A stretch of 64,000 bases of DNA. It comes from Bradyrhizobium jicamae (GTDB lineage: Bacteria > Pseudomonadota > Alphaproteobacteria > Rhizobiales > Xanthobacteraceae). Position numbers and translations under genes: made by a program. The stretch spans positions 1 to 64,000 of the forward strand of contig NZ_LLXZ01000071.1 of assembly GCF_001440395.1 (NCBI RefSeq), given 5' to 3'. How positions within the stretch are numbered: the first letter of the stretch is position 1; each line of letters begins with the position of its first letter. Shown here one piece after another: positions 45,717-49,374 of the stretch. Below the pieces are notes generated by a model that did not search any database, was not told the DNA's origin, and saw nothing but the letters and a program-made list of their open reading frames with translations.

Positions 45717-46301
45717 ATGACCCTTCCCCAGGACGGCCCTCCAGACCTCGGCAAACTGCAGTCTGAAATGAACGCCGCGGTGAAGGCGCGCTGGAAGGTC
45801 ATTCTGTTTGAAGGCATCGTGCTCGCTTTGCTCGGCCTCGCCGCGATGATCGTGCCGCCGCTGGCAAGCCTTGCCGTCACCATCTTCCTTGGCTGGATGT
45901 TTCTGATCGGCGGCGTTGCCGGGCTGTTCGTCACCTACTGGTCGCGCCAGATGCCGGGCTTCTGGTGGTCGCTGTTCTCAGCGGCGCTCGCCGTTCTCGC
46001 CGGCGGGATTTTGCTGGCGCGGCCGGCGCAGGGCATTCTCACGCTCACCATCGTGGTCGGCGCGTATTTCCTGGCCGAAGGCGTCGTTACCATCATGTAC
46101 GCGCTGGAGCACCGCCGCGAATTGTCGGAGCGCTGGTCCTGGCTGCTGATCTCGGGCGTGATGGACCTGCTGATCGCGTTCGTCATCGTCGCCGGCCTGC
46201 CGGGGTCGGCGGAATGGGCAATCGGCCTCCTGGTCGGGATCAATCTCGTGCTCGGCGGCGGCTCGATGGTCGGCATGGCGCTCGCCGCGCGCAAATCCTG
46301 A
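45717..46301 (+). CDS. HdeD family acid-resistance membrane protein
   Basis: A 194-residue protein starting at ATG 45717 behind GGGAG, with six membrane helices in three pairs typical of HdeD/DUF308 (WKVILFEGIVLALLGLAAMI, VPPLASLAVTIFLGWMFLIG, ...). HdeD contributes to acid resistance at high cell density in E. coli; that role is not proven in rhizobia. The aroG promoter follows directly. Confidence 0.85.
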   Translation: MTLPQDGPPDLGKLQSEMNAAVKARWKVILFEGIVLALLGLAAMIVPPLASLAVTIFLGWMFLIGGVAGLFVTYWSRQMPGFWWSLFSAALAVLAGGILLARPAQGILTLTIVVGAYFLAEGVVTIMYALEHRRELSERWSWLLISGVMDLLIAFVIVAGLPGSAEWAIGLLVGINLVLGGGSMVGMALAARKS

Positions 46302-46314
46302 CGTCGATTATGGG

Positions 46315-46343
46315 GTGACAAGCCCGAACGGCTGGGCTATAGA
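46315..46343 (+). promoter_or_regulatory. Sigma-70 type promoter of the aro leader
   Basis: GTGACA (46315-46320), 17 bp and TATAGA (46338-46343) match the housekeeping consensus (5/6 at -35). Transcription should start at about 46350, that is, at or beside the leader-peptide ATG. Confidence 0.7.
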
Positions 46344-46350
46344 GCCCGCC

Positions 46351-46431
46351 ATGATCACCTTCGCCGCCAGCAACTTTTGGTATTTTAGCTACGACAGCTC
46401 GCTGGCGGTGGGAGGATCGCGCTCAATCTGA
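46351..46431 (+). CDS. Aromatic leader peptide of the aroG attenuator
   Basis: A 26-residue peptide, MITFAASNFWYFSYDSSLAV then GGSRSI. It holds Phe, Trp, Tyr, Phe and Tyr at positions 9-14 and an earlier Phe at 4, so it can sense all three aromatic amino acids. There is no Shine-Dalgarno sequence and the promoter places the start of RNA at the ATG, so translation may be leaderless, as known for the trpL leader of Sinorhizobium meliloti. Confidence 0.8.
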   Translation: MITFAASNFWYFSYDSSLAVGGSRSI

Positions 46432-46481
46432 TGAATTGAAGCCAAAAATCCGAACAGCCGCCAAACCTGGCGGCTTTTTTT
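46364..46481 (+). promoter_or_regulatory. Transcription attenuator with complete 1:2, 2:3, 3:4 pairings
   Basis: Region 1 CCGCCAGC (46364-46371) pairs with region 2 GCTGGCGG (46401-46408). Region 2 TGGCGG (46403-46408) can instead pair with CCGCCA of region 3 (46458-46463). Region 3 AGCCGCCA (46456-46463) pairs with region 4 TGGCGGCT (46468-46475), followed by TTTTTT: the terminator. Ribosome stalling at the aromatic codons 46375-46392 frees region 2 and permits readthrough. Confidence 0.82.
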
Positions 46482-46516
46482 ATTGCCGGCAGGTTTCCTA
46501 ACCAGGAGCCAGAGCC

Positions 46517-47605
<1,089 letters not shown>

Positions 47606-48180: not shown

Positions 48181-49374
48181 TCAGAACACATCGATCGTCG
48201 GGAAGCGCGGCTCTCCAGTGATGCAGTCCCAAAGGTAGATCGCAAGCCCGACGTCGCCGGTCCAAAGCGTATACCGTCCGCGGCCGACGACGGCATGAGC
48301 GCCGCGATACTGGACGACGGCCGTCATCGCGAATTGGCGTGCGCGGTCGAGCCAAACCGGGTCGTTGGTGCGGCGGTAGAGCTTGAGAAATGCGTAGCCA
48401 TTTCCGCCGGTGCCGTGGCAAAGGCCCGCGCCCTTGGTAAGCGGTCCGGCGGCCCAGGCGAAGCGACCGCCATCGACGAGGAGCGTGTCGAATTCAGAGG
48501 TGGCAAAGGGCGCATCCGCAAACGTCGTCACCATGCCGGGCGCGCCGTGGCAATGCTGACAATAGGCAGGCGGCCTTGCGCGCTTGCTTCTCGCCGCCCA
48601 ATTTGTCCCGGTCTCAGATCGCCAGGCATTCGCTGCGAGTGTCTGCGGCACAAATTCGGCTACTTGCGCCTGCTGCGTCGGCGTCAACCAGTCCCATCCG
48701 TGCAGCAATGGGATCACGTTGCCGGCAAAACCGTGAACGGGCCCCAGCCATTGGTCGTTCTCACCATAGAGATCCTGGGTCCAAAGTTGACCTTGCGGCG
48801 TGTCCTCAAGCGCGCGCAACAACCGCGCCGCCTGTACTTCGAACAGGCCGCGCCATCGCGTTTCCTGTGTCATCCCGGCCATATGGATTGCCGCCAGCAT
48901 GGAGCCGGGCATGCCCCACATCAGCTCCCGGATCGGCAGTCGCATGTTTGCTTCTGCACGCCTATGCACAAGATCCGCCATGCTCGATGTGGGAGCGAGA
49001 CGCATGGCGAGCAGCGCTGCGCCCATGTCGCCCTTGAGCAGCGAACCATGCTTGCCGTAATCGGCAGGCGAATTGTTTTCGAAGGCAGCACGCGTCCGCT
49101 CCAGTAGCCGGGGCAGAGCCGGGCGAAAATCCCGGGCAGCACTGACGGCACCGACCCGATGCAAATAGTCCAGCGCCCAGATGACACCGGCCGCGCCCGT
49201 GTAGAAACTGGGGTTGCCGTCTCCCACGCCGTCGTCGCTTGGATGACCCGGCCAGAACGTGTCAAGATCGAACTGCGCTGTGGCATCGGCTGCAATTTCT
49301 TCGATCGCAGCCCGGACGGCCAATTCATTCCAGGCGTCCGGTGCAAGCGGACGATGACGACCGAGGGCAATCAT
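48181..49374 (-). CDS. LanC-like protein
   Basis: A 397-residue (alpha/alpha)-barrel protein. It keeps the LanC features: repeated GxxG helices (PSFYTGAAGVIWALDYLH, GMPGSMLAAIHMA, GPVHGFAGNVIPLLHGWD), YCQHCHGAPGMVTTF and LCHGTGGNGYAFLKLY, which supply the Cys-Cys-His zinc site. LanC enzymes cyclise lanthipeptides, while LANCL proteins add glutathione to dehydroamino acids. No precursor peptide or LanB/LanM gene is nearby, so a LANCL-like repair role is more plausible. AGGAGG precedes the ATG. Confidence 0.85.
   Translation of the reverse strand: MIALGRHRPLAPDAWNELAVRAAIEEIAADATAQFDLDTFWPGHPSDDGVGDGNPSFYTGAAGVIWALDYLHRVGAVSAARDFRPALPRLLERTRAAFENNSPADYGKHGSLLKGDMGAALLAMRLAPTSSMADLVHRRAEANMRLPIRELMWGMPGSMLAAIHMAGMTQETRWRGLFEVQAARLLRALEDTPQGQLWTQDLYGENDQWLGPVHGFAGNVIPLLHGWDWLTPTQQAQVAEFVPQTLAANAWRSETGTNWAARSKRARPPAYCQHCHGAPGMVTTFADAPFATSEFDTLLVDGGRFAWAAGPLTKGAGLCHGTGGNGYAFLKLYRRTNDPVWLDRARQFAMTAVVQYRGAHAVVGRGRYTLWTGDVGLAIYLWDCITGEPRFPTIDVF

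Follow-up and report, generated by a model that had tools for sequence, protein, structure and literature searches.

The window, i.e. the whole 64,000-nt stretch of Bradyrhizobium jicamae DNA that was analysed (contig NZ_LLXZ01000071.1, positions 1 to 64,000), contains a type I (AroG-like) DAHP synthase gene preceded by a putative attenuator (window 46315-46481) that ends 35 nt before it. The upstream neighbour is a DUF308 gene, whose stop codon has its last base at 46301, leaving 49 nt to the ATG of the leader. The features of the locus are as follows:

46315-46320, + strand: -35 box GTGACA; the same [AG]TGACA precedes most of the alphaproteobacterial leaders examined
46338-46343, + strand: -10 box TATAGA, with a 17-nt spacer from the -35 box and 7 nt from the box end to the leader ATG
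46351-46431, + strand: leader ORF of 26 codons, MITFAASNFWYFSYDSSLAVGGSRSI followed by the stop codon; ATG at 46351, predicted to be leaderless
46363-46371, + strand: segment 1 (GCCGCCAGC), used in the 1:2 test of own against swapped partners
46375-46392, + strand: control codons F9 W10 Y11 F12 S13 Y14
46401-46409, + strand: segment 2 (GCTGGCGGT), used in the swap tests
46414-46417, + strand: GGAT, 5' strand of a proposed antiterminator inner helix (suggestive only)
46448-46451, + strand: ATCC, 3' strand of the proposed antiterminator inner helix (suggestive only)
46456-46463, + strand: segment 3 (AGCCGCCA), 5' arm of the terminator
46468-46475, + strand: segment 4 (TGGCGGCT), 3' arm of the terminator
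46475-46481, + strand: T7 run of the intrinsic terminator
46485-46495, + strand: segment 5 (GCCGGCAGGTT), whose partner is 46464-46474 (AACCTGGCGGC), with 10 pairs and one mismatch
46504-46508, + strand: AGGAG, likely Shine-Dalgarno sequence of the DAHP synthase gene
46517-47605, + strand: type I (AroG-like) DAHP synthase, GTG start, 362 amino acids

The encoded enzyme matches TIGR00034 (E 3e-157) and PF00793 (E 2e-92), falls short of the score required by NCBI's AroG equivalog model, and has its nearest named homologue in Bradyrhizobium algeriense (94% identity). Eighteen positions of E. coli AroG, which we take to be in or near the Phe site, were compared. Because 15 of them are identical in the window's enzyme (13, 211, and 221 differ), inhibition by Phe would be a fair guess. 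The same genome also encodes a second, type II DAHP synthase (G000:C187:52231-53544, minus strand), and a LanC-like gene (PF05147, E 9e-19) lies on the minus strand at window 48184-49374.

Segments 1 and 2 form eight Watson-Crick pairs and one G-U pair, segments 2 and 3 form six pairs (UGGCGG/CCGCCA) and a G-U pair, and segments 3 and 4 form eight pairs followed by the T7 run. The coordinates and the three stems given in the initial annotation are right, and all of these pairings and the T run are present in the sequence. Its leader peptide with F-W-Y-F-S-Y was found in the 26-codon ORF, and no Shine-Dalgarno sequence is visible 5' of the leader ATG, as it had stated. The leader RNA has a fold z of -3.7, with none of 200 shuffles equally stable. 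The minimum-energy fold of window 46363-46475 contains 1:2 and 3:4, and that of window 46401-46495, in which segment 1 is left out, contains 2:3, the inner helix, and 4:5. As in trp-type attenuators, an intrinsic terminator lies between the leader ORF and the gene, and codons for the products of the pathway are clustered in the leader (F-W-Y-F-S-Y before DAHP synthase), with aromatic runs also in relatives.

The control codons were compared among 31 diverse alphaproteobacterial leaders. Phe and Tyr codons occur in all 31 and a Trp codon is also present in 23; all three lie inside the aromatic run in 22 leaders, and the other nine have Phe and Tyr inside it. These counts indicate that Phe and Tyr are general and Trp is common. 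The proposal of the initial annotation that all three aromatic amino acids are sensed is consistent with the 22 of 31 leaders having F, Y, and W in the run, and the missing Trp codon in eight of the 31 is a point against three-way sensing. Phe codons favour TTT (118, vs 40 TTC, in 58 leaders). In the window, the codons F9 W10 Y11 F12 start 3 nt beyond segment 1, and 14 nt separate their end from segment 2. Since the usual ribosome footprint is about 28-30 nt, a ribosome stalled on them would cover segment 1 and leave segment 2 free. Toward the end of the ORF, Gly five codons before the stop is kept in 20 of 21 aligned alphaproteobacterial leaders and Arg three codons before the stop in 19 of 21. 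The conserved Gly/Arg codons (window 46414-46428) vary mostly at third positions, which hints at selection on the leader peptide itself.

A covariance model built from 27 leaders was searched over genus, class, and order samples. In the genus, the leader was found in 185 of 195 genomes (E ≤ 1e-5) and DAHP synthase likewise in 185, the ten genomes without the gene being the ten without the leader (presence was compared, not adjacency). In the class sample, the gene (E ≤ 1e-60) and a strong leader match (E ≤ 4e-8) were present in the same 14 of 385 genomes, 12 of which lie outside the genus; in one of these (G381), leader and gene are at the ends of two contigs. Because the genome sets are identical, leader and gene go together. 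The order sample gave 18 matches at 1e-5 in 150 genomes: 16 precede DAHP synthase, one (L168) precedes a tyrosyl-tRNA synthetase gene, and one (L170) looks like a chance terminator. Two families sampled further had matches in 12 of 15 and 2 of 39 genomes. The window's own genome has one match of the RNA model at E ≤ 0.001, and no such leader was seen by eye upstream of its type II DAHP synthase gene or its tyrS. Weak matches are common: 47 of the 61 matching class genomes have none below 1e-7. Nine weak loci from nine of those genomes (L126-L134) were inspected; eight look like chance terminators, and L128 has an aromatic leader before another gene.

Some of these leaders precede other genes. 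In L168 (positions 1501-1620; genome G689, same order), a promoter-like site beside the ATG, a Tyr-rich leader (MIKTAATFVYFYYVTSIPAAA), and a GCCGCC terminator, the same architecture as in the window, precede a gene that by eye reads as tyrosyl-tRNA synthetase, and the attenuator may have been used for tyrS too. In L128 (positions 1501-1940; genome G489) and on the minus strand of L172 (genome G397), both from one genus (g177), aromatic leaders (MHSRAVFNYWYFTLLT and MIHAANYYYWFISSHTGGAQGFV, respectively) lie before short proteins. The L128 protein has 89 amino acids, and by eye those of L128 and L172 resemble the S4 tail of tyrosyl-tRNA synthetase; these leaders are possible attenuators of a lone S4 protein. 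A second stretch from G489 showed no aromatic leader, and the G397 stretch has one.

The loci of the best 80 DAHP synthase homologues were also searched. These were chosen by likeness to the window's enzyme and are therefore no census; title or leader places 17 of them in Alphaproteobacteria, two of the other 63 are titled only Proteobacteria, and one of the 80 loci had too little upstream DNA. A locus was counted when it had a terminator and a leader ORF with four aromatics in seven codons. Both were present upstream of 16 of the 17 alphaproteobacterial type I DAHP synthase loci (0 of 1700 dinucleotide shuffles). A terminator was found at 42 of the 62 non-alphaproteobacterial loci, and 41 of these 42 carry an aromatic leader as well (2 of 6200 dinucleotide shuffles); many of the 41 are Burkholderiales with a 5' UTR. 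Examples from beyond the class are MKFASPAFYFYFYGFLKPLAEEGTRAV (Bordetella), MSAKFYFYFFWYLRPLADREGC (Paraburkholderia), and MNASCRSFYFWYYGFPMPLAEEGSRSP (Xanthomonas). Within the best 80 homologues, no terminator was found at the loci of Enterovibrio, Pantoea, Thauera, Azoarcus, Methylotenera, and others. Of 147 upstream stretches in total, 23 were dropped: 21 had no terminator by the script, and two (L033 and L121) had a terminator without a qualifying ORF, L121 being an alphaproteobacterial model match before DAHP synthase with the peptide MNAARTLSARFYPRSIAGGIRGA.

Leader peptide and stems thus recur in relatives, the conservation by which the initial annotation had proposed to check its reading. 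A terminator between two genes read in the same direction might belong to the upstream gene, with a chance ORF beside it. The peptide, the stems, and the link to the gene all reappear in other classes, and only 2 of 7900 shuffles combined a terminator with an aromatic leader. This reading, refuted by the leader-gene co-occurrence in class and genus and by the shuffle counts, retains practically negligible probability. The same data bear on a second alternative, drawn by analogy, in which selection would act on the terminated RNA and/or the peptide, with a function in trans as for rnTrpL/peTrpL, and control of the adjacent gene would be secondary. Sinorhizobium meliloti is known to make such a leaderless small mRNA, according to the available portions of PMC7298713 and PMC10117765, and the conserved Gly/Arg codons would suit such a role. 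However, the leader is absent wherever the gene is absent in both genome samples (for strong matches in the class), and parts of the peptide end could also be conserved through RNA pairing; we regard a primary function in trans as unlikely.

Promoter positions were scored with a sigma-70-like scan within about 75 nt 5' of each leader start. The 83 alphaproteobacterial leaders scored (82 before DAHP synthase and one before tyrS) include near-identical species and the window's own locus; one locus (L056) was left out of the scan for too little upstream DNA, and ten starts were reassigned manually to a more internal ATG, since in those leaders the -10 box TATATG itself contains an in-frame ATG. 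Measured from its end to the start codon, the best -10 box is 5-10 nt away in 82 of the 83; in the remaining one (L006), whose start the script had misplaced, the distance is 6 nt by hand. Mean anti-Shine-Dalgarno pairing in 47 loci is -2.0 kcal/mol before the leader start vs -6.6 kcal/mol before the gene. The initial annotation had placed the transcription start at the leader ATG and named a start well upstream of it as a refutation. The promoter-like GTGACA-17-TATAGA of the window agrees with the former as a predicted site, and the promoter-to-ATG spacing kept across the alphaproteobacterial leaders examined gives, at the sequence level, no sign of the latter. Because of this 5-10 nt spacing, leaderless initiation looks class-wide in Alphaproteobacteria. 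A terminated leaderless RNA of about 131 nt would be expected. In B. japonicum, 320 transcripts start 0-10 nt before the start codon and 192 exactly at it, as given in the available text of PMC4842269; its main text has no match for aroG or attenuation. The extended -10 motif TGnTA, reported there for leaderless B. japonicum mRNAs, is absent from the window, and this counts against our preferred explanation.

Outside Alphaproteobacteria, the distance from the -10 box to the start was 6-13 nt in 13 of 40 loci, 19-58 nt in 22 (21 Burkholderiales by record title and one Dyella), and negative, with no promoter found, in five. The short spacings include Bordetella, Rhodanobacter, Xanthomonas, and one of the two Dyella loci. 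Since both short and long distances occur, attenuators of similar build seem to exist both with a 5' UTR and without one, and the 22 loci with a distant -10 box indicate that the switch itself needs no leaderless start. These loci favour a further alternative, that the attenuator is real and its leader is read mainly from longer upstream transcripts, perhaps of the DUF308 gene, by ordinary or coupled initiation. In the window, an in-frame GTG lies at 46315, and with the end of the DUF308 gene 49 nt away from the ATG, part of the transcription may come in from there. Against this, the -35/-10 pair stays at the same distance from the start codon despite different upstream sequence (Mesorhizobium, Devosia, and Leisingera), and the reading frame 5' of the leader ATG is not kept (e.g. 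in L103 and L105). Reading mainly from longer transcripts is therefore improbable for the locus.

The alternating pairings were examined with a swap test, chosen to avoid alignment bias, in which each leader's own partner strands are compared with partners exchanged among 58 leaders (alignment score < 0.78 to each other; L006 entered with a wrong start). Own partners paired better than swapped ones for both 1:2 (-18.44 vs -16.63 kcal/mol) and 2:3 (-14.22 vs -13.24 kcal/mol), with 0 of 5000 permutations as low in either case. By group, 1 of 5000 permutations was as low in alphaproteobacteria and 42 of 5000 in the others for 1:2, and 15 of 5000 in alphaproteobacteria alone and 0 of 5000 in the others for 2:3. 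Six control pairings were run alongside. Three gave no signal (1363, 2174, and 4593 of 5000) and a fourth gave 376; the other two were segment 1 paired with the 16 nt preceding segment 3 (149) and the promoter paired with segment 3 (18; 1404 of 5000 when only alphaproteobacteria were taken). With two of the six controls below 5%, part of the swap-test signal is relatedness. The consensus fold of alignment A1 (27 leaders) contains the terminator and the inner helix and neither 1:2 nor 2:3. The evidence for mutually exclusive 1:2 and 2:3 helices comes from the swap tests and the folds of the window, with two controls below 5% and a consensus fold lacking both helices.

The terminator has a covariation score of 0.128 vs 0.082 in shuffled alignments (0 of 500 as high), and slid copies of it reach 0.110. 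Two-sided changes at three of its nine pairs and its six pair types are not beyond chance (38 and 211 of 500 shuffles, respectively, reach these values). The inner helix is weak: among 5000 permutations each, 252 were as low when all leaders were taken together, 174 in alphaproteobacteria, and 594 elsewhere. The GGAGG within the leader was considered as a Shine-Dalgarno or pausing site and set aside, as it is readable as part of this inner helix, itself only suggestive.

After the T run, a fifth segment pairs with segment 4. This segment is absent from the initial annotation and is new here. Because segment 5 lies at variable distances in alignment A2, 4:5 was tested by alignment-free comparison only. 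In 31 diverse alphaproteobacterial leaders (one before tyrS), own partners gave -16.9 vs -14.6 kcal/mol for swapped ones (0 of 20000 permutations), and in 26 non-alphaproteobacterial leaders -10.0 vs -8.6 kcal/mol (4 of 20000); in a previous form of the test, the corresponding counts were 0 and 12 of 5000. Among the non-alphaproteobacterial loci, 4:5 is stronger where the -10 box lies 4-13 nt before the start (mean -12.5, n = 10, vs -6.9, n = 12; Mann-Whitney p 0.011, the loci being related groups). A different origin of the segment has to be weighed, since template switching can make palindromes covary without selection: 4:5 might stem from quasi-palindrome template switching at the repeated GGCGG/CCGCC and have no function. 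This would suit the non-alphaproteobacterial leaders, of which just 10 of 26 reach -12 kcal/mol. In contrast, 29 of the 31 alphaproteobacterial leaders reach that value, against a mean of -10.3 kcal/mol with shuffled downstream DNA, and segment 2 shows no own-pair preference for the segment 5 stretch (4889 of 5000 permutations as low or lower). We consider a non-functional segment 5 a possibility to be taken seriously, although not the probable one.

As for a function, 4:5 is possible in read-through RNA only. Segment 5 is unmade when RNA polymerase decides at the T run and therefore cannot steer the termination decision; we infer that 4:5 acts as a latch against refolding of the RNA once read-through has occurred. 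The idea that segment 5 switches the Shine-Dalgarno sequence of the gene was rejected, since the opening expected of an ON switch was not seen. In 28 alphaproteobacterial loci, the mean unpaired probability of the Shine-Dalgarno sequence is 0.43 when segment 4 is left out and 0.39 when it is included (up in five, down in seven); in 21 other loci it falls from 0.38 to 0.20 (up in two, down in 14); the script used the codon adjoining the likely start in some loci.

We propose that the locus is, with high probability, a ribosome-mediated trp-type attenuator through which DAHP synthase would be controlled jointly by charged tRNA-Phe, tRNA-Trp, and tRNA-Tyr. In the scheme that we infer for the start site, ribosome stalling, the starvation response, and the role of 4:5, RNA polymerase would start at the AUG or within a nucleotide or two of it, and the leader would therefore be read by a ribosome loading on a bare 5' end. 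When all three tRNAs are charged, the ribosome would pass segment 2 to the stop codon and 1:2 would form behind it, so that 3:4 forms and transcription ends at the T run. When any of the three is short, the ribosome would stall at codons 9-12 and hide segment 1, segment 2 would capture segment 3, and the gene would be transcribed. Segment 5, made after escape only, would then trap segment 4. The OFF state would thus consist of 1:2 and 3:4, and the ON state of 2:3 and 4:5. A broader view would see a five-segment family that reads three amino acids at one codon run, is kept with type I DAHP synthase through Proteobacteria, shifts between leaderless and leadered forms, uses segment 5 as an ON latch, and employs its terminated leaderless RNA in trans; taken as a whole, this is speculative and rather unlikely.

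In the preferred attenuator reading, one codon run appears to read all three aromatic end products at the first enzyme of the pathway, and comparable switches precede the gene for that enzyme in many relatives. How a leaderless message can time an attenuator could be addressed directly by exchanging 5' ends, since the switch appears leaderless in Alphaproteobacteria and seems to have a 5' UTR in many Burkholderiales. The post-terminator segment raises the possibility that switches of this type lock their ON state, a feature missing from four-segment models.

The leader site and 13 related loci have no Rfam match at the curated threshold, and the two Rfam matches of the window are tRNAs elsewhere. 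Because no Rfam family covers the leader, a family model could be added. The Rfam leader families (Trp, Phe, and others) share alternating segments and control codons with it. In the enterobacterial ilv leaders, one leader reads Ile, Val, and Leu. Reading several amino acids at one leader is therefore not itself new, although the ilv leaders serve the branched-chain pathway with another peptide and other segments. Our literature search, which covered its sources in part, returned no proteobacterial DAHP synthase leader of this kind, and Vitreschak 2004 and Panina 2001 may mention one; the main text of Naville 2010 (PMC2965389) has no match for aroG, aroF, or DAHP. Near cases in the available texts are a Tyr attenuator hypothesised for E. 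coli aroF and motifs computed upstream of aroF and aroH in Shewanella (PMC2659441, PMC8632094), as well as attenuators listed in a database ahead of a DAHP synthase-tyrA operon in Vibrio (PMC1173090). As described in the accessible part of PMC8632094, uORFC-13-1 before aroF of Acholeplasma resembles the window leader in having a uORF with a Phe-coding U run and a terminator before a DAHP synthase gene, and differs in its host, in the presence of a ribosome binding site, and in that no W-Y-F run is described there. The trpL attenuator of S. meliloti and Bradyrhizobium, for which the available texts report trans action of rnTrpL/peTrpL (PMC7298713, PMC10117765), is likewise an alphaproteobacterial attenuator with a leader ORF at the RNA 5' end and a small RNA on termination. 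However, it has Trp codons and precedes trpE, and the Bradyrhizobium trpL peptide (MSTAVAPARLWWRTS) is unlike the window leader.

Among the known systems found, the AroR attenuator of aroF in Corynebacterium glutamicum appears closest by analogy. Its transcript is leaderless. The available texts describe a Phe-Tyr-Phe leader peptide and ribosome stalling (PMC11802643; aroF leader peptide, PMC4046766), so that AroR and the window leader both have consecutive aromatic codons before a DAHP synthase gene, with attenuation by ribosome stalling, proposed in our case. AroR, however, belongs to an actinobacterium and responds to Phe and not to Tyr (PMC11802643, as far as its available text goes), whereas the window leader carries W-Y-F together, is found in Proteobacteria, and has a fifth segment.
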